Source of the DNA: Candidatus Kirkpatrickella diaphorinae
GTDB lineage: Bacteria > Pseudomonadota > Alphaproteobacteria > Acetobacterales > Acetobacteraceae
Direction of reading: 5' to 3'
NCBI RefSeq assembly: GCF_025736875.1
Contig: NZ_CP107052.1
Coordinates: 1,414,001 to 1,478,000 of the forward strand
DNA: 64,000 bases
The first letter of the stretch is position 1, and each line of letters opens with the position of its first letter. A program made the position numbers and the translations under genes. The notes beneath the pieces are model-generated. The model saw nothing but the letters and a program-made list of their open reading frames with translations, did not search any database and was not told the DNA's origin. Shown one piece after another: positions 43,630 to 53,287 of the stretch.

Positions 43630-45603
43630 ATGCGAGAAACCTCTCTTTTCGCATCGAGTAATAGCGCGCGCGCCTTTGTGCTGAGCGTCGCATTTCTGGC
43701 GGGCTTTTCAGTTGCACCTTTACGGGCCCAAACGTCCAGAAACTCGATGCAAACCGGTATCAAAGTTCCATCTCAGGTCGAAGAAACCGCCTTCGCCATC
43801 CCGCAATTCCCCGGTCTTCATGGATCGGGGCATGAGTTGCCGCGCCCGCTTTCGGCAGCAGATGCCGCCGCGTTGCGCAAGGCCTTCCAGGCCCAACGGC
43901 AGGGTGATTTCACCTCAGCAATCCGATATAGCGAAGCAACACATGACCCGGTCCTTCTGGGAGACCTGCTGGCAGCGCGCTATCTCAACCCGGCATTTCA
44001 TCCCAATGCGCCGCAACTCAAACTCTGGCTGGCGACAAATGGCAATTACGCGGATGCGGAGGCCATCCAGGGACGTCTGATTGAAATCAGCCCGCCTGGC
44101 ACGGTTAGATTACAACATTTTGTCTCGCCCCTCCTCCCGTCCGATACGGAAGCCACGTTTGACGCATTGCCGGAGCCTGACCCCGTCGCCGCCTCTTTGC
44201 GGCGCAATGCATCACTTGACCGGACGATTGCCGACTGCCTCTCAAAAACGGAGCCAGCGCTTGAGCGGGCGCGTCACATTGTCGACACCACCAAATGGAT
44301 CAGTTCCGTTTATCGCGCGCAGCTTTATGCGGAGATCGCATTGGGCGCATTGGGCGCAGGCGAAAATGCATTTGCTTTATCGACCGCGGAAGCCGGGTTT
44401 GCTGCCTCAAAAAATCAATTGGGCTATGCCGCCTTTGTCGCCGGGCTGGCAGCGTGGCAGGATAATCGCTATCATGACGCGCTGCGGCTTTTCAATGAAG
44501 CTGCGGATGCCCCCCTTTCACAGGTGACGGTTAAAGCGGGCGCCTCTTATTGGGCCGCGCGCGTCGAGAAACGTCTGGGCCACGTCGTGAATGCCCGCGC
44601 CTGGCTGCGCCGTGCCGCCGCCATGCCCGATACGTTTTACGGTATTCTGGCACGTCAAACGAGTAAACAGCGTCCGCCATCACGCCCCCGTCAGATCGTC
44701 TCCAACACGGATCGGGCGGCCATGTCCAACGCCGTGCCGGTGATGGGTGAGGTGGATATTCAGGCCGTCGAAGCCACACCGCAGGGACGTCAGTTATTCG
44801 CCCTGTTGCAGATTGGCGAGACGGACCGCGCTGAAGCGGTTCTGCGGCGCATGTGGCGCGACATTGAGCATGACCGCGCAATGTGCCACTCGGTGCAACT
44901 TGTCGCTTCCGCAGCCGGTTTGCAGCGTTTCGCGAGTCAGGTGGCGACAATCCTTGCCACGAGTGAAGCGCAGCCTGCGGCGCTCCCAGGCTTTCCGATG
45001 CCCCATCTCGCGCCGCGACATGGTTTTCGGATGGACCCGGCGCTGATTTATGCGCTGACCAAAATCGAATCAAATTTCAACCCGAAAGCCGCATCAAGCG
45101 GCGGCGCGCACGGGTTGATGCAGATCAGACCCCAGACAGCGAGCTTTGTCGTCGGGCCGAAACCCTCGTTGAATGCGAATGGTGTGGCCATCATCAAAGT
45201 CCCCTCCGATATGGTCGGGCAATTGCGCAACCCCGCCATCAATCTCGATATCGGGCAGAAATATCTTGCTTATCTCGCCACCCTGACCGCCCGCACCGTA
45301 TCTGCGCCGGAAGGAGGCGAGCTGTTGCACACACTGGCCTCATATAATGCCGGGCCGGGCGCCATCGCGCGTTGGGAAAACAATACCCATAATGATGACA
45401 TCGCCCGGGACCCGTTACTGTTTCTTGAGACCATCCCTTTCAAGGAAACGCGAAACTATGTGCGCAACGCTCTAACCTATCTGTGGATCTACGCCGATAA
45501 GATGAACCTGCCCATGCCGTCCCTCAACGCCCTCGCACAGGCACGCTGGCCGGAATTCGCCAAGGAAAAGCAACTCGCTTACGCGGCGCCGACCCTTCAC
45601 TAA
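43630..45603 (+). CDS. slt: Soluble lytic transglycosylase, Slt70-like
   Basis: A 657-residue periplasmic enzyme. The N-terminal signal (VLSVAFLAGFSVAPLRAQ) is followed by a long helical superhelix and a C-terminal SLT domain: catalytic Glu in ALTKIESNFNP, SSGGAHGLMQIRP and LASYNAGPG. The architecture is that of Slt70. It trims peptidoglycan in an exolytic way to 1,6-anhydro-muropeptides. A 184-bp spacer separates it from the upstream gene. It lies directly before the GH39-like genes, on the same strand. Confidence 0.92.
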   Translation: MRETSLFASSNSARAFVLSVAFLAGFSVAPLRAQTSRNSMQTGIKVPSQVEETAFAIPQFPGLHGSGHELPRPLSAADAAALRKAFQAQRQGDFTSAIRYSEATHDPVLLGDLLAARYLNPAFHPNAPQLKLWLATNGNYADAEAIQGRLIEISPPGTVRLQHFVSPLLPSDTEATFDALPEPDPVAASLRRNASLDRTIADCLSKTEPALERARHIVDTTKWISSVYRAQLYAEIALGALGAGENAFALSTAEAGFAASKNQLGYAAFVAGLAAWQDNRYHDALRLFNEAADAPLSQVTVKAGASYWAARVEKRLGHVVNARAWLRRAAAMPDTFYGILARQTSKQRPPSRPRQIVSNTDRAAMSNAVPVMGEVDIQAVEATPQGRQLFALLQIGETDRAEAVLRRMWRDIEHDRAMCHSVQLVASAAGLQRFASQVATILATSEAQPAALPGFPMPHLAPRHGFRMDPALIYALTKIESNFNPKAASSGGAHGLMQIRPQTASFVVGPKPSLNANGVAIIKVPSDMVGQLRNPAINLDIGQKYLAYLATLTARTVSAPEGGELLHTLASYNAGPGAIARWENNTHNDDIARDPLLFLETIPFKETRNYVRNALTYLWIYADKMNLPMPSLNALAQARWPEFAKEKQLAYAAPTLH

Positions 45604-45814
45604 CATCGCAACCCATCCCGCCCTATCGCCGACAGGGTCCTGCCTGCACGGAGGAAGCTGCCCGTCTTTTTGCGGCAGAGATAGATGGTCGTGTCAGGCC
45701 GAATTTCACATTTCCGGCGTCAGGACATTATCGGGTGATGGATGAGGGGCGCGGGCGGCCGACACCAGCAGAACCGGAAAATCATCAGAAGTTAAAAAAA
45801 AGTGAATTAGACGG

Positions 45815-45843
45815 TTGAAATGAATTATAAATAAAAGTATAAT
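45815..45843 (+). promoter_or_regulatory. Strong sigma-70-type promoter of the first GH39-like gene
   Basis: TTGAAA (45815-45820), 17 bp, then TATAAT (45838-45843). The spacer is AT-rich. The transcript would start near 45850, giving a short purine-rich leader before ATG 45877. This is one of the best consensus promoters in the window. The remaining part of 45604-45814 shows no gene. Confidence 0.72.
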
Positions 45844-45876
45844 GCGAGTATAAAAAAATAAGAAAAAGAGAAATAA

Positions 45877-47637
45877 ATGCAACAAATAACTATTGATGCA
45901 AATGTAAGCGATAAATCATTAGGAAGAAACGGTCTTATTAAAGACATTAACGGCGTCAATGGCACGCCGATTTCCTTCATGCCTGGATTTCCCGATCTTC
46001 AGGACCAGTTCAACCAGATCGGCGTCAGCCATGTCCGGCTTCACGATATATTCGGCCCGGGCGACCTCGAAAACAACGCTTCCACCACGGATACAGGGAG
46101 TCAGTTACTTCTGGCCGTGCCTTCCAACGAGAAGAAACGCGCGGCAGCCTTCATCGCCAACATCATGAATGATCGCGCCATTTTCCCCCACGCAAATGAG
46201 GGAATGCGCAAACATGACAGGACGCTTGCGGCTTCAGAACCGAATTGGGCGCCCACTGATTATTATATTAACGAAACGATGCGTAATGTCGAAAGTCTCA
46301 ATCCGGGACATATTCAACGCGATGTGATGTTTCGTATCGGGCGCTCCAATGGTGGTGGCGCCGATGCACCGGCGGATCTCGATATTTATGCTGAACTGGT
46401 CGGGGAGGCCGTGAAGCGTTATTCTGCGGATCTCTCACTCTCCGGGATACCGCGTAAAATCGAGTATTGGGAAATCTGGAATGAGCCCGATCTGCTGATT
46501 TTCTGGAAAGGTGGCTCAACCGCATTTTACGAAATGTACGCGAAAATCGCAAGGAAGATCAAATCGATCGATCCGAATGCGAAAGTCGGCGGGCCGGGCG
46601 TTGCCGATGGTGAAAACGGCACGGGCGCTTACACGAAGGGCCTCGTCGCCTATTGTCAGAAAAACAATGTGCCGCTTGATTTTCTGTCCTGGCATTATTA
46701 CGCCCATATGACGACAGACCCGTTGAAGTTCGCAACCTGCGCGAAGGTCCAGCGCAATCTGCTCGATAAATACGGGTTCAAATATGCGGAGAGCATCTGC
46801 TCCGAATGGAACATCACGCCCTTCGCTTCCGTCGCGAACGCCACGAAGGTTCAGACACCGCAAAACGCGGCTTTCATCGCTGCCAGTTTCATCACCATGA
46901 ATCGCTGCAGCGTCGATAAGGCCTATTATTATCGCGGAGATGCCGGTTTTCTCGGCCTTTTCAACAATGAGCCCAATTATCTCGACCCCAAATATCGCGG
47001 TTTCAGCACCGCCGCGGCGCAGGCTTTCGGATTATATAAGGAGATGTTCGGCACGCCGAACCTGCTCGCCACGCCGGATTATTCGAATAACAATCTCTAT
47101 GTTTTGTCGGGGCGCGGCACAAATGCGGTCAATGTGCTTGTCGCACATTTCCGAAAGGATGTTTCGCTCGCGGCGGCAGCCTCCCCGCCGCCCGGCAACA
47201 AATATAATAAGCAATATTACGTTGATTCAGGGCGTGATCTTGATGAGATCACCGATGATTGGAGCCGTGAGCACTGGTTCGGTGAGGTCAAAGCGGGTGA
47301 AGGCAGAAACAGCGCCGATAGCGCACCATCCACATCGACGGATGACCCGGGCAAAGCGACCCCCTCAGACGAACCCGTCACCGAACCCGTCACCCCCTTA
47401 TCTGCAATACATTATGTCAGTCCGACCAGTGACGGCGTGGTTGTCACCGTGAAAAACCTGCCGACGAGAACGCCCGTTCTTGAGGTCAGAAGGGTTAAGG
47501 ATAAGGGTAATCTTGGTGTGATCCTTCCCGTCATCGATAATCAGGGCGTGACCATGAAGACCAACGAAACGACGATCACGATCACCGATCCAAATGCAAC
47601 CGACTATACGGTCTCGCATTACTCGATCATTTGGTAA
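45877..47637 (+). CDS. GH39-like glycoside hydrolase, tandem copy 1
   Basis: A 586-residue protein. The catalytic TIM barrel of clan GH-A covers about residues 20-420. Acid/base Glu203 is in YWEIWNEPDL and the likely nucleophile Glu310 in ICSEWN; FLSWHYYA fits the family strand. After residue 460 comes a Ser/Thr/Pro/Glu linker, then an about 75-residue beta-rich end domain finishing in TVSHYSIIW. No signal peptide or membrane segment: the protein starts MQQITIDANV. GH39 enzymes cut beta-xylosides, iduronides or exopolysaccharide (PslG); substrate here is unknown. Two paralogues follow. Confidence 0.82.
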   Translation: MQQITIDANVSDKSLGRNGLIKDINGVNGTPISFMPGFPDLQDQFNQIGVSHVRLHDIFGPGDLENNASTTDTGSQLLLAVPSNEKKRAAAFIANIMNDRAIFPHANEGMRKHDRTLAASEPNWAPTDYYINETMRNVESLNPGHIQRDVMFRIGRSNGGGADAPADLDIYAELVGEAVKRYSADLSLSGIPRKIEYWEIWNEPDLLIFWKGGSTAFYEMYAKIARKIKSIDPNAKVGGPGVADGENGTGAYTKGLVAYCQKNNVPLDFLSWHYYAHMTTDPLKFATCAKVQRNLLDKYGFKYAESICSEWNITPFASVANATKVQTPQNAAFIAASFITMNRCSVDKAYYYRGDAGFLGLFNNEPNYLDPKYRGFSTAAAQAFGLYKEMFGTPNLLATPDYSNNNLYVLSGRGTNAVNVLVAHFRKDVSLAAAASPPPGNKYNKQYYVDSGRDLDEITDDWSREHWFGEVKAGEGRNSADSAPSTSTDDPGKATPSDEPVTEPVTPLSAIHYVSPTSDGVVVTVKNLPTRTPVLEVRRVKDKGNLGVILPVIDNQGVTMKTNETTITITDPNATDYTVSHYSIIW

Positions 47638-48034
47638 CGTTGACAGCGATGCTGGGCGGGGCGTGACTCGGAGGCACATCCTTCGAAGCAACCGTCCTGA
47701 TGCGACAGTACGCTTAAATAAAAATAAGCGGGTTCATCCTGCGGTGATCTGAAACTCTACCTTGCCTGCGGGATGACCAACCGGTCAGGAATGTCAGGAT
47801 CGGCCTGGTGCGCCGTCTTACAGGGCGGCGCACCGCGTCGAAACAAACCGTAAAATAGCCAGAAACTTCACCCGAAGAATTGTGGCGAGTGGGCATCGCC
47901 GCCTGTGAGGACACACGTCTCTTTCAACAATTTTGACCTGCGTATGATCTCTCAACATTGTGCAATGACTTTTAATAAAAACCTAATCAGACTTTGTCTG
48001 CCCTCTAACTGTTTGAAAATACGAGAATCGATTG
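47638..48034. other. Spacer between GH39-like copies 1 and 2
   Basis: No supported gene. A hairpin with a 9-bp perfect stem (GGTGCGCCG at 47807-47815, CGGCGCACC at 47826-47834) sits in it, without a T-run. Downstream the stretch 47960-48030 is AT-rich and leads into the copy 2 promoter. Confidence 0.5.
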
Positions 48035-48063
48035 TTGAGGACGAAGCATACTTCGGTTACAAT
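48035..48063 (+). promoter_or_regulatory. Promoter of the second GH39-like gene with an inverted repeat in the spacer
   Basis: TTGAGG (48035-48040), 17 bp, TACAAT (48058-48063). The spacer holds CGAAG-CATA-CTTCG, a 5-bp inverted repeat between the two boxes, where a repressor could bind. The transcript start would be near 48070, 20 bp before ATG 48090. Confidence 0.6.
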
Positions 48064-48089
48064 TGAAATAATAAGAAAAAGAGTATATC

Positions 48090-49856
48090 ATGCAGCAGAT
48101 CAGTATCAACGCAAATCAACCTGCGTTCGGTCAAGGTAAAAACGGTCAAGTTAAAGACATTAATGGCGTCAATGGCGCGCCGATCTCATTCATGCCGGGC
48201 TACCCTGATTTACAGGACCAATTTAATCAGCTCGGTATCAGCCATGTGCGTTTCCACGATATTTTCGGGCCTGGCGACATTGAAGACGTTGTCTTCCCCC
48301 TGCAAATAACTTCCCAGCTCATGATTGCCGTCCCAATACCGGAAAAAATACGTGCGGCGGCATTCGTTGCCGCCATTACGAAGGACCGCGCCATATTCCC
48401 TCATGCAAATGCCGGAATGCGCGTCGCAAGTCGGTCCCTGGCAAGTTCGTCGCCCAATTGGGCACCGACTGATTATTATATCCGGAAGACAATGGAGAAT
48501 ATTGAGAGCCTGAACCCCGGACATATTGAGCGCAATGTGATGTTTCGCGTCGGACGCTCAAACGGAGGCGACAGCTCGGTCCCGGCGAATTTCGACATTT
48601 ATGCTGATCTGGTGGGTCAGGCTGCGCAACGTTACTCTGCAGATATTTCCCTATCCGGCATACCGCGCAAAGTCGCCTATTGGGAAATCTGGAATGAGCC
48701 TGATCTCGTCCTTTTCTGGATGGGAACGCCGAAGAAGTTTTACTCCATGTATGAAAAAATCGCGCGTAAAATCAAATCGATTGATCCTTCAGCCAAAGTG
48801 GGCGGAAGTGGCGTCGCCAATGGGGATGACGGCTCAGGGCCCTATACGCGCGGGCTGGTGGATTATTGCCGCACAAATGACGTGCCGCTCGATTTTCTCT
48901 CATGGCATTATTACGCTCAGAACTCGTCGGATCCACGTCGTTTCGCGACCTGCGCCGCCCTGCAACGACAGAATCTGGATCGCGCCGGCTTCACCTCTGC
49001 AGAAAGTATCTGCACGGAATGGAATATTACGCCCCTTTCCTCAGCCATCACCGCTTCAGCGGTTCAATCTGCTGAGAATGCGGCCTATATCACCGCAAGC
49101 TTCATCACGATGAACAAATCTGCCGTCGATAAAGCCTATTATTATCGGGGCGATGCGGGTTTTCTGGGCCTCTTCAATGACGCCCCCAATCCGAGAGACC
49201 CGTCCAGCAAGGCTTTCTGCACTTATGCCGCGCAGGCTTTCGGGCTTTATAAGCAGATGTTCGGCACGCCGCAACTTCTGGCGACCCCGGAACTCTCCGG
49301 CAATGATATTTATGTGCTGGCGGGACGCGGCACAAATGCCGTCAACGTGCTTGTATCAAATTTCACACCCGATTTGCGGCTGGCTGCGGGCGCAAAAACG
49401 CCAAGCGGCGGTCTTAATCAGCAACATTATGTGGATTCCGGCCGTCTCCTGTTTGCCATCGATGATGATTGGAGCATTGAACATTGGTTTGGCGGGTCCA
49501 AACCCAGCATCCTGCGCCAAACCCATTACGAGCCGCCATCAACCGCCGCGCACCCGGACGCGCCGGAAACCGAGGAGGATGGCGAGGATCCGGGTGCTTC
49601 ACACCCCGCTCCGGTTTCGGCCCCTGCCCCAGCGGTGATGGCCGTCAATGATGGTATCGTGCTGAATGTCAGTGGTTTGCCGACTTCGACACCGAGGCTT
49701 GAAGTCCGCCGCATCGTACAAGGCGGCGACCTTGGCGCTGTGCTTCCCCCGGTCAATAATGGGGGCGTAAATGTGCAATATAATGGCAATAATATAACAA
49801 TCTACGATCCATTAGCTGTTCAATATACGGTGACGCATTATTCTATCATTTGGTAG
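48090..49856 (+). CDS. GH39-like glycoside hydrolase, tandem copy 2
   Basis: 588 residues, closely related to copy 1 over the whole barrel: residues 22-62 differ at only a handful of positions. Catalytic Glu203 (WNEPDL) and Glu310 (ICTEWN) are kept at identical positions. The linker (about 470-515) is different, rich in Ala, Pro and Glu. The end domain again finishes ...HYSIIW. No signal peptide. Its own promoter and the leader motif AATAAGAAAAAGAG just before the ATG repeat the arrangement of copy 1, which points to a tandem duplication including regulatory DNA. Confidence 0.82.
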   Translation: MQQISINANQPAFGQGKNGQVKDINGVNGAPISFMPGYPDLQDQFNQLGISHVRFHDIFGPGDIEDVVFPLQITSQLMIAVPIPEKIRAAAFVAAITKDRAIFPHANAGMRVASRSLASSSPNWAPTDYYIRKTMENIESLNPGHIERNVMFRVGRSNGGDSSVPANFDIYADLVGQAAQRYSADISLSGIPRKVAYWEIWNEPDLVLFWMGTPKKFYSMYEKIARKIKSIDPSAKVGGSGVANGDDGSGPYTRGLVDYCRTNDVPLDFLSWHYYAQNSSDPRRFATCAALQRQNLDRAGFTSAESICTEWNITPLSSAITASAVQSAENAAYITASFITMNKSAVDKAYYYRGDAGFLGLFNDAPNPRDPSSKAFCTYAAQAFGLYKQMFGTPQLLATPELSGNDIYVLAGRGTNAVNVLVSNFTPDLRLAAGAKTPSGGLNQQHYVDSGRLLFAIDDDWSIEHWFGGSKPSILRQTHYEPPSTAAHPDAPETEEDGEDPGASHPAPVSAPAPAVMAVNDGIVLNVSGLPTSTPRLEVRRIVQGGDLGAVLPPVNNGGVNVQYNGNNITIYDPLAVQYTVTHYSIIW

Positions 49857-49885
49857 TTATTGTTCAAATCAAAATTTATAATTGG

Positions 49886-49921
49886 TGGCCCGACCGTTAC
49901 ATATCCTCGCGGGTCAGGCCA
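49886..49921. terminator. Imperfect hairpin between GH39-like copies 2 and 3
   Basis: TGGCC-C-GACC (49886-49895) pairs with GGTC-A-GGCCA (49912-49921) with one mismatch and a 16-nt loop, 30 bp after the copy 2 stop. No T-run follows. It might weaken read-through into copy 3. Confidence 0.4.
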
Positions 49922-49973
49922 TCACGACATTGTCGGAAGCACGACAAAAAAAGAAAAATAAAGGATCTCCAAC

Positions 49974-51758
49974 ATGTTTAGAATTCAGATTGACCCCAAT
50001 ACACCCCTTGCCAGCGGAAATACGTCCGCGCAGGTCAAGCAGGTCAATGGCGTGAATGGTTCACCCATCTCCTTCATGCCGGGTTTTCCCGATCTTCAGG
50101 ATCAATTCAGACAATTGGGCTTCATCCACATCCGGATGCACGATATTTACGGCGTCTGCGATATTGAGCCATATTTTGACGCCAATCGAGCCGCAAATAC
50201 AAACCAGCTTCTCCCCAACGTACCGCAGGATCAACAGGACCGCGCAAAAAATTTCATTGCCGATTTCAATAATACGCGCGTCATTTTTCCGAATGCCGTG
50301 AAAGGCATGAAAAAGCTGAGTACCAGCCTTGCGAAGAAAGATGCAAATTACGCGCCCACTGATTATTACCTCAAGCAAACGATTGAAAACATTGATTCCG
50401 CGGCCAGCAGCGCCTCTGGCGGCGAAATCATGTTCCGCATCGGGCGCTCAAATGATGGCGGGTGGGAATTGCCATCCAACTTCAAAATCTATGCCGAGCT
50501 TGTCGGTGAACTCGTCAAACGTTATTCCAGCGACCTTTCAAAATCGGGCCTTCCTCGTAAGGTCAAATATTGGGAAATCTGGAATGAGCCGGACCTTCCC
50601 TTCTTCTGGAACACGGATGATGTGTCGCGCTATTACGAGTTTTATGCGACGGTCGCCCGGAAGATCAAATCGATCGACCCCGATGCCAAAATCGGAGGCG
50701 CGGGGGCTGCGTTCGGGCTGAATATCGGAGGCGCCTTCCTTGACGGGCTCCTTGCTAATTGCCGCGCAAAGAGTGTCCCGATCGATTTTCTCTCCTGGCA
50801 TTTTTACCCGAGCGAGACAGCCGATCCGCAAAATATCCTGGACGCGGCTGACGGTGTTGCCGCCGCGCTTGACGCTTATGGCTTCAGCAATGTGGAGAGT
50901 ATCTGCTCAGAGTGGAATGTCAGCCCTTACGCATCCTACCTGATGTACAGCAAAGTGCAGAGCGCGCAGAACGCCGCTTTCGTCGCCTCCACTTTAATCG
51001 GCATGAATAAGTGCCGGGTCGACCATGCCCATTATTATCGTGGTGACGGCGGGGCCTTCGGGTTATTCAATGATGCATTCAACCCCGCGATCCCGGACGC
51101 GAAAGCGTTCTGCTCCTATGTCGCGCAGACTTTCAAATTATATAATGAAATGTTTGATACGCCGCAGCTAATCTCAACGTCAGATGCGGGGCGCACGGGC
51201 ATCAGCATTCTCGCAGGGTCGTCCAGCGGCAAAATCAACATCCTCGTCGCAAATTACCGCATCGACAAGTCGCTACCGCAAATGTATACGCCCCCGGTCG
51301 GCAATATTTATTACAATCAGCATTATGTCGATACGGGTCGAAGCCTCGCGGAGATCACTGATGATTGGTCACGGGAGCATTGGTTCGGCGGCCAGGATCC
51401 AACCACCCTGCATAACAACAACGAGGTGCCCCAGCAGGCCTGGGCACCGACTTTGCCATCCTCGTCACCCTATCCCGTCCGGACCCGCGATTACGCCCAG
51501 AGCGCTGGCGGCGTACATCTGGTGATCAACGATCTGGCCGGGCGTGTTGATTCGGTAAAAGCGCATCGCCTCTATGAAGGCGGCGATCTGAGCGGGGTTA
51601 TGCCGCCAGATGTTTCACAGGAGCTGGCTTATTGGTACGATGGCAATGACTACATCATTGAAGACGGAAATGCGAAGGAAAGCACGGTAACGCTTTACAC
51701 GATCACTTTGAGAGACTGGCATCGCTTCCCCACTTTGCCGCCGATTCATAAGAAATAA
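49974..51758 (+). CDS. GH39-like glycoside hydrolase, tandem copy 3 (divergent)
   Basis: 594 residues, more distant from copies 1 and 2. Catalytic Glu205 (WNEPDLPFFW) and Glu313 (ICSEWN) are kept, as are NGVNGSPISFMPGFPDLQDQF and SWHFYPSE. The linker is short. The end domain is related but has a different C-terminus (LRDWHRFPTLPPIHKK) without the HYSIIW ending. No signal peptide (MFRIQIDPN). GGATCT and AT-rich sequence precede the ATG. It lies 117 bp after copy 2 and may share its transcript; I see no good promoter of its own. Confidence 0.8.
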   Translation: MFRIQIDPNTPLASGNTSAQVKQVNGVNGSPISFMPGFPDLQDQFRQLGFIHIRMHDIYGVCDIEPYFDANRAANTNQLLPNVPQDQQDRAKNFIADFNNTRVIFPNAVKGMKKLSTSLAKKDANYAPTDYYLKQTIENIDSAASSASGGEIMFRIGRSNDGGWELPSNFKIYAELVGELVKRYSSDLSKSGLPRKVKYWEIWNEPDLPFFWNTDDVSRYYEFYATVARKIKSIDPDAKIGGAGAAFGLNIGGAFLDGLLANCRAKSVPIDFLSWHFYPSETADPQNILDAADGVAAALDAYGFSNVESICSEWNVSPYASYLMYSKVQSAQNAAFVASTLIGMNKCRVDHAHYYRGDGGAFGLFNDAFNPAIPDAKAFCSYVAQTFKLYNEMFDTPQLISTSDAGRTGISILAGSSSGKINILVANYRIDKSLPQMYTPPVGNIYYNQHYVDTGRSLAEITDDWSREHWFGGQDPTTLHNNNEVPQQAWAPTLPSSSPYPVRTRDYAQSAGGVHLVINDLAGRVDSVKAHRLYEGGDLSGVMPPDVSQELAYWYDGNDYIIEDGNAKESTVTLYTITLRDWHRFPTLPPIHKK

Positions 51759-51778
51759 TTGTTGGAGGAAAGATCGAG

Positions 51779-51802
51779 GGTGTCACGGTCAAACGTGACA
51801 CC
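51779..51802. terminator. Hairpin after the GH39-like cluster
   Basis: GGTGTCACG (51779-51787), loop GTCAAA, CGTGACACC (51794-51802): a perfect 9-bp stem 20 bp after the copy 3 stop. There is only a short TT after the stem. A terminator or mRNA-stabilising hairpin is likely. Confidence 0.6.
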
Positions 51803-51921
51803 TTCAGTCGCGCATCACGTCAGGATAAAAGATGCGGGCACCGAGGGCGAGGGGTGAAACGGGGCGCGCGGCGTCACATTACCCCGCCCTCGCCGCGCCC
51901 ACGTGAGAACGCCTTACCAAC

Positions 51922-53214
51922 TCAATTTTCGGCAAGCACCTGACGGCTGGCGCGCGCTTCAATAACACGCCTCTTATCCATTTTCGTGACTTCAAACATC
52001 CATCGCCCGAAAATGATTTTATCCCCCTGCGAAGGCACACGCCGCAAGAGGGTCAGAATCAGCCCCCCAAGCGTGTGGTAACTTCCCTGAGCCGGGAGTT
52101 CAGGTAGATCCAGTAGCGACCGCACCTCATCTGCCGGCATGAAGCCATCCAGCACATATTCCCCGGATAAGGCGGATTTCTCATTTTTCGTCTTATTCTG
52201 TTCCAGGTGCTCATCACCGACAATGGCTTCAAAAATGTCGGACGGCGTCACAACACCCTCAAACGAGCCATATTCATCAAGGACGAAAGCAATCCCCGAG
52301 CTGTTCTGACGCATGAGTTCGATCATGTCCTGCGCGCTGAGACTGTCCGGGACAACAACCGGCGTTTTCAGCGCCGCTTCAATGGAAAGCGGCAGGCCTT
52401 GCAGCAGGCGATCCATCAGATCTTTCGCTAATACGATGCCGACAGGATGGTCCACGTCACCATCACACACGACGATACGCGTAAATTTCGAGTCACGTAA
52501 TTTGACGATCAATGCTTCACGGCTCGAATGGCGATCGACCCAGAATAACTCACTTCGCGGCGTCATAATAGCCCGGACAGGCCGATCCGCGAGGCGCAGA
52601 AGCCGCTCGATCATCACGCGCTCTTCAGCCTCCAGCACGCCGGCGCGCGCGCCTTCAACGAGGACGGCACGCAACTCCTCCTCCGTCAGGGAGGCTCGTT
52701 CCGCCCCGCGCGCCCCGAGCAGACGGATGATGAGCGATGATGCGGCGCTCAACGTCTTGACGATGGGCCGCATGATGGCTGATGTTACGGACAGGATGGT
52801 GGAGAGGCGCGCAGCATAGCGCTCAGGGTGGTAAAGCGCGAGCTGCTTGGGGACCAGTTCCCCGAAAATCAGCATCCCCAATGTGATGATAAGCACGACA
52901 ATGAAAATCGAGATATCATTGGCGTAATTTTTCAGGCTCTCGATATGCGCGATTTTCCGGGCGAGATGGTGCTCAATCTCACTCCCGCCGAAAGCACCTT
53001 CGAGAATGGAGACCACCGTCATACCCACCTGAACGGTCGGCAGAAAAGATTGCGGGTCATCCGCCAATTGCAGGGCGCGGGCCGCACCGCGCACTTTGGC
53101 CTTCGCCATTTCAGCGAGGCGCAACCGTTTGGAGGAGACGAGCGCCATTTCCCCCATCGCGAAAATCGCATTGATGAGGATAAGAAGGCAGATAATCAGG
53201 ATCGGCGTCGTCAT
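51922..53214 (-). CDS. CNNM/CorC-family (HlyC/TlyC) membrane protein with CBS domains
   Basis: About 430 residues from ATG 53214; a TTG at 53235 would add seven. The N-terminal DUF21/CNNM membrane domain has three to four helices (ending GELVPKQLAL), then two CBS domains (IMTPRSELFWVD and VVPDSLSAQDM, with the GVVTPSDIFEAIVGD ending) and a CorC_HlyC domain (LDGFMPADEVRSLL). Such proteins are linked to Mg2+ or Co2+ export and metal homeostasis, in spite of the haemolysin label. It lies downstream of hpnH on the same strand. Confidence 0.9.
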   Translation of the reverse strand: MTTPILIICLLILINAIFAMGEMALVSSKRLRLAEMAKAKVRGAARALQLADDPQSFLPTVQVGMTVVSILEGAFGGSEIEHHLARKIAHIESLKNYANDISIFIVVLIITLGMLIFGELVPKQLALYHPERYAARLSTILSVTSAIMRPIVKTLSAASSLIIRLLGARGAERASLTEEELRAVLVEGARAGVLEAEERVMIERLLRLADRPVRAIMTPRSELFWVDRHSSREALIVKLRDSKFTRIVVCDGDVDHPVGIVLAKDLMDRLLQGLPLSIEAALKTPVVVPDSLSAQDMIELMRQNSSGIAFVLDEYGSFEGVVTPSDIFEAIVGDEHLEQNKTKNEKSALSGEYVLDGFMPADEVRSLLDLPELPAQGSYHTLGGLILTLLRRVPSQGDKIIFGRWMFEVTKMDKRRVIEARASRQVLAEN

Positions 53215-53287
53215 GATGACAGGTCGTGCCCCCAATGACGCATCGGACTGACTCCCGCCCGGCCATCAATATCCGTCAAGCTCACTG

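Follow-up and report, generated by a model that had tools for sequence, protein, structure and literature searches.

A tandem triplet of GH39-type glycoside hydrolase genes from a deep, so far unstudied clade in acetic acid bacteria

The triplet and its gene neighborhood

The 64-kb stretch of DNA analyzed here (the window) carries three intact open reading frames arranged head to tail on the forward strand, which encode proteins of 586, 588 and 594 amino acids (W1, W2 and W3), exactly as the original prediction had described them. They lie between an slt gene and a corC-like gene, together with the following features.

43630-45603, + strand: slt (lytic transglycosylase), flanking gene
45604..51921, no strand: lineage-specific insertion holding the triplet (flanking genes nearly adjacent in relatives)
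45815..45843, + strand: sigma-70-like promoter candidate upstream of W1 (TTGAAA-17-TATAAT, 11/12; pattern match only)
45877..47637, + strand: W1, GH39-type gene copy, 586 aa (Pfam PF01229, 66 bits; fold; residues)
46483-46485, + strand: predicted acid/base E203 of W1 (alignment)
46804-46806, + strand: predicted nucleophile E310 of W1 (alignment)
48090..49856, + strand: W2, GH39-type gene copy, 588 aa (Pfam PF01229, 62 bits; alignment)
48696-48698, + strand: predicted E203 of W2 (alignment)
49017-49019, + strand: predicted E310 of W2 (alignment)
49974..51758, + strand: W3, GH39-type gene copy, 594 aa (Pfam PF01229, 68 bits; alignment; tree)
50586-50588, + strand: predicted E205 of W3 (alignment)
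50910-50912, + strand: predicted E313 of W3 (alignment)
51922-53235, - strand: corC-like flanking gene, convergent with slt

The copies had been proposed to be separately promoted, and the good sigma-70-like candidate before W1 and the gap of 452 bp upstream of W2 are in line with this; with only 117 bp upstream of W3, the proposal is supported in part.

In five relatives without a triplet at this place, one of them a Commensalibacter-genus genome with GH39 genes elsewhere, the matches to slt and corC lie only 28-85 bp apart. As read from the sequence, the same slot is occupied by ABC-transporter genes in one further genome (G191) and by an HTH regulator with an epimerase-like gene in another (G008). 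Since the slot is nearly empty or differently filled in relatives, the triplet is, judged by gene order, a lineage-specific insertion into a permissive slot. The variable cargo of this slot among acetic acid bacteria (window 45603-51922; L135, L136) may mark an insertion hot spot.

No sugar uptake or exopolysaccharide genes directly adjoin the triplet in the window, as had been noted before. Hopanoid genes (hpnH, hpnI and hpnJ) are found downstream, and are best read as chance neighbors, because the triplet is a lineage-specific insertion and the other GH39 loci are devoid of them. Among the loci compared across genera, no neighbor was conserved in more than one genus, barring a few genes common to two loci.

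Family, fold and catalytic residues

The assignment of W1-W3 to a GH39-like family is borne out by several lines of evidence. All three proteins scored above the curated cut-off of the Pfam Glyco_hydro_39 profile (PF01229; 62-68 bits at a cut-off of 26 bits, E values 5e-17 to 1e-18), the match being confined to the middle of the profile. The AlphaFold2 model of W1, built from 16 homologues (pLDDT 76, pTM 0.81), consists of a (beta/alpha)8 barrel followed by a C-terminal beta-sandwich, as expected for GH39. The structural matches of the model were topped by GH39 enzymes, namely CmGH1 (5z3k) with Z 30.2 and beta-xylosidases with Z of about 24, and the GH51 and GH30 enzymes gave Z 20-22.

In the alignment of 16 homologues E203 (in WEIWNEPD) and E310 (in SEWN; W1 numbering) are invariant, which agrees with the earlier statement that both catalytic glutamates are kept in all three copies. 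Their motifs line up with EVWNEP and TEYN of the GH39 xylosidases, and the two residues take the places of the catalytic glutamates on strands 4 and 7. R54, N202, E203, H273, Y275, E310 and W311 are also invariant in 22 outgroup sequences, H56 and D57 being retained in 21 of the 22. On the grounds of Pfam, profile and fold W1-W3 are GH39-type glycoside hydrolases, and the kind of enzyme is clear. From the family, the fold and the residues of W1-W3 follows the prediction of a retaining glycosidase mechanism, in which, according to the model and the alignment, E203 would protonate the leaving sugar and E310 would form the glycosyl-enzyme, with net retention of configuration.

Distribution and phylogeny

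The enzyme was detected (E 1e-20) in five of the 299 sampled genomes of the family, which represent three genera: the window's own, one containing Commensalibacter communis, and a third genus. The distribution is patchy within genera as well, the enzyme being absent from five of the seven sampled Commensalibacter-genus genomes and from a second genome of the third genus. A one-genome-per-species scan, from which records near the window were possibly left out, returned full-length relatives from Commensalibacter only; beyond this genus identities dropped to about 25-39%, the matches covering parts of the protein and coming from Bacillota, Bacteroidota, Verrucomicrobiota and other groups. Plasmid matches were likewise distant (≤32% identity, covering at most about half of the protein), and a plasmid origin was rejected.

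In the maximum-likelihood tree, calculated from loci found by similarity and not from the full CAZy GH39 set, the proteins of acetic acid bacteria formed one clade with 100/100 support, whose stem measures 1.89 changes per site. Within this limited sampling, the placement favors a separate clade over a known GH39 subgroup. The copies cluster by genus, and therefore the expansions were separate in each genus. W1-W3 are thus members of a deep GH39-type clade that has not been studied so far and that, in the searches made, was present in full length in three genera of acetic acid bacteria only. Our search of the open-access literature returned no paper naming both Commensalibacter and GH39 and, judged by title, none of the three papers that mention both GH39 and Acetobacteraceae concerns this clade. 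From genome size and kinship, the window's own genus probably lives with insects or flowers.

The second triplet and its C-terminal tail

The window genome (one contig of 2,176,471 bases) encodes six GH39 copies, all of them intact. The three outside the window form a triplet of their own, which follows znu-like transporter genes and a gene of the Fur family.

G000:C1:1775165-1782275 (L020:8166-15288): second head-to-tail GH39 triplet, proteins of about 731-739 aa

The proteins of this second triplet and several relatives possess a linker, rich in Asn/Pro or in Gly, together with a tail of 103-134 amino acids at the C-terminus; W1-W3 lack the tail. The tail is predicted to fold as a beta-sandwich (pLDDT 87). 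Foldseek gave no match for it at E 0.001 or better, with weak jelly-roll and CBM65 hits only, and this result is insufficient to call the tail a new fold. In the five genomes searched, the tail was confined to GH39 enzymes or their remnants, so it was not taken as a module common to other proteins. A CBM14 (peritrophin-A) chitin-binding domain was also considered and rejected, as the scores stayed below the Pfam cut-off in the relatives where they appeared (at best 21.2 bits against 22.1, over ~20 residues at locus L027) and there are two Cys only. One protein at this Commensalibacter locus (L027:5990-6724) has the tail domain twice; its CPGxxxFN...C motif is similar, at a score under the cut-off, to the insect chitin-binding peritrophin-A motif.

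The surroundings of the second triplet bear on the view that the enzymes remodel the surface or exopolysaccharide of the bacterium itself, as PslG does for Psl. Genes of GtrII, GT92-like and GT2 glycosyltransferases occur within ~6 kb of this triplet, and PslG was recovered as a distant profile match (E 1.6e-4). This match is far weaker than those of CmGH1 and the xylosidases, however, the neighbors vary between loci and genera, and a patchy presence within genera would be odd for a housekeeping function, so that we regard own-surface remodeling as unlikely.

Divergence, recombination and decay of the copies

W1 and W2 had been described as near-twins in the barrel, which does not agree with their 63% overall identity and a synonymous divergence near saturation (dS about 1.5-1.7). 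The copies in the window genome are old (dS about 1.4-1.7). Placing the earliest split at W3 proved correct, as this copy branches outside W1 and W2 in the tree. A dosage need had also been suggested originally; a pure dosage role is disfavored because the copies have diverged, their identities spanning just 46-63%; this divergence would rather favor related but different targets.

The dN/dS values between species were 0.08-0.31 for the GH39 copies, including comparisons with the now-broken copies of the sister species, and 0.05-0.28 for the neighboring genes. These values show that the GH39 proteins have been under purifying selection, which supports the expectation that all three copies encode active enzymes, activity itself being predicted.

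The sister species retains both loci with a single intact GH39 copy, copy 2 of the window locus. Nonsense changes interrupt copy 1 of that locus at codon 76 (CAG to TAG) and copy 3 at codon 135 (CAA to TAA), and each of these two copies also has a frame break; the second locus contains only remnants, one with codon 203 changed from TGG to TGA. Sequencing error is an unlikely source of the three stops, each a C:G to T:A substitution with intact neighbors alongside; for the frame breaks this is less certain. The genes round the second locus of the sister (L023, G046:C1:1595000-1614900; Fur-like, asparaginase-like and GT92-like) are also in broken pieces, which suggests wider decay or assembly errors there.

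Such losses could mean that the family is made up of selfish or relic paralogues in decay that retain little function today. The single intact copy left in the sister, and the three nonsense changes and the frame breaks in its other copies, fit this idea; against it stand the six intact copies out of six in the window genome, the invariant catalytic residues and the low dN/dS, even versus the broken sister copies. We consider relic status quite improbable.

Comparison with the sister also revealed an exchange between adjacent copies.

46464..47280, + strand: swapped block in W1 (codons about 196-204 to 464-468; reciprocal with W2 versus the sister)
48677..49490, + strand: partner block in W2 (approximate, via the 2213/2210-bp offset between the copies)

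W1 and W2 differ from each other at 625 sites, and at these the sister copies S1 and S2 were compared site by site. Outside codons about 200-466, S1 matched its positional partner at 161/173 and 140/161 informative sites and S2 at 143/164 and 153/163, whereas inside these codons the sister copies matched the opposite copy (171/215 and 214/237). The breakpoints, which delimit a block of about 800 bp, are identical for both sister copies. The 5' breakpoint falls within codons 196-204, and therefore the conserved WEIWNEPD motif is where the block begins; the nucleophile E310 is certainly inside it. The site pattern of W1/W2 versus the sister shows a reciprocal swap of part of the catalytic barrel, from the acid/base motif to past the nucleophile. 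Together with the decaying sister, this exchange between tandem copies makes a clean small case of how a bacterial enzyme family is shuffled and dies.

Cellular location

A hydropathy scan detected no hydrophobic N-terminal signal (Sec or Tat) in any member, and in W1 a stop codon abuts the ATG, so that no upstream extension is possible. Type VI export was rejected, as no match to TssC/VipB was found in the window genome. This genome encodes a type I-like ABC protein (L119:7247-9496) with an HlyD partner, and the missing signal peptide is as expected for type I secretion; among the hallmarks of this route, a transporter gene beside any copy and RTX repeats in the enzymes were not found. This transporter is present in 226 of the 299 family genomes, both with and without GH39, and its co-occurrence is uninformative because most of the family has it; a link of GH39 to a specific type I transporter on this basis was therefore dropped. 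No regulator or transporter linked to the GH39 genes was found.

Two further observations concern exporters. The window genome has a 1809-aa autotransporter adhesin beside a C39-peptidase ABC exporter and an HlyD partner (L120:1519-6948). In the sister, the species in which most GH39 copies are broken, the type I-like ABC transporter is seemingly cut (G046:C1:67869-69269), a 480-aa frame corresponding to residues 83-551 of 749.

These data leave a close rival, namely cytoplasmic glycosidases which trim oligosaccharides or glycosides after import without any export. It agrees with the missing signal peptides, with the impossible extension of W1 and with the lack of a dedicated exporter linked to the GH39 genes, and OprB-type carbohydrate porins are located <4 kb from two Commensalibacter-genus copies (the second recognized by 63% identity). 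On the other hand, the window copies have no uptake genes nearby, and the beta-sandwich tails with their linkers look extracellular, one of them having paired Cys. We consider the cytoplasmic role a real possibility, at somewhat less than even odds. Leaderless export, for example by type I secretion, is our slightly preferred guess, since the relatives show the linker-and-tail design and two Commensalibacter loci adjoin leaderless RTX or Hint_2/AIDA surface proteins; the neighbors of these few loci are a weak pointer to export.

Proposed role and significance

Taken together, we assign a probability of roughly 50% to the reading that an unstudied GH39-type clade evolves by birth and death, its copies probably covering related linkages, with leaderless export slightly preferred. 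Each of W1-W3 would be a glycosidase with a TIM barrel and a beta-sandwich at the C-terminus. According to the sequence evidence, a permissive intergenic slot would have received the genes by insertion, each genus would have multiplied them in tandem on its own, neighboring copies would have recombined, and some lineages would have lost them again. The copies would then act on related linkages of one polymer, either of the plant or insect surroundings or of the cell surface. A glycan from outside may be the target, as the birth-and-death, patchy and fast-turning distribution fits variable outside glycans; type I secretion or another leaderless route might take the enzymes to it, in the manner of PlyA/PlyB. 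A more elaborate version, in which a GH39 branch of acetic acid bacteria is exported leaderless, a new beta-sandwich tail aims some copies, exchange of barrel segments diversifies specificity and gain and loss track host or plant glycans, seems to us rather doubtful.

The usual view is that acetic acid bacteria with small genomes feed on simple sugars. That a genome of 2.18 Mb has six copies of a dedicated glycosidase points to an overlooked glycan, and a new activity is plausible for the clade, which is far from the characterized GH39 enzymes compared here. The clade, the missing export signal, the tail and the recombination make this variant worth assaying, although the mechanism itself is no surprise.

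Comparison with known systems

The best solved relative of the window proteins is CmGH1, the GH39 beta-glucosidase of Croceicoccus marinus (PDB 5z3k; PMC6933502), by both sequence (E 5e-38) and the fold match given above; about 27% of residues are identical to W1 in the structural alignment, and the DFLSW and F/Y-R-x-D motifs are in common. In CmGH1 both catalytic glutamates are missing, DQ and Y standing at these positions (PMC6933502), while the window proteins keep both and are thus the more canonical enzymes. The GH39 beta-xylosidases (2bs9, 1px8 and 4ekj) have the same barrel-plus-sandwich fold and catalytic motifs at 16-19% identity in structural alignment, but the residues after the nucleophile strand (YYYRGD) are a motif of the window clade's own.

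GH39-type enzymes are known to act on xylosides and glucosides (PMC6933502), on arabinogalactan side chains (PMC10688797) and on further glycans. For W1-W3 the cell's own exopolysaccharide and plant xylan-type glycans, both suggested originally, are candidate substrates. The Bifidobacterium GAfase and AAfase, GH39 enzymes of plant glycans likened here by family membership alone, have signal peptides and glycan gene clusters (PMC10688797), in contrast to W1-W3 with no signal peptides. With respect to export route, not sequence, the proposed behavior of W1-W3 resembles that of PlyA and PlyB of Rhizobium leguminosarum, leaderless alphaproteobacterial glycanases which reach the outside through PrsDE (PMC2275737).
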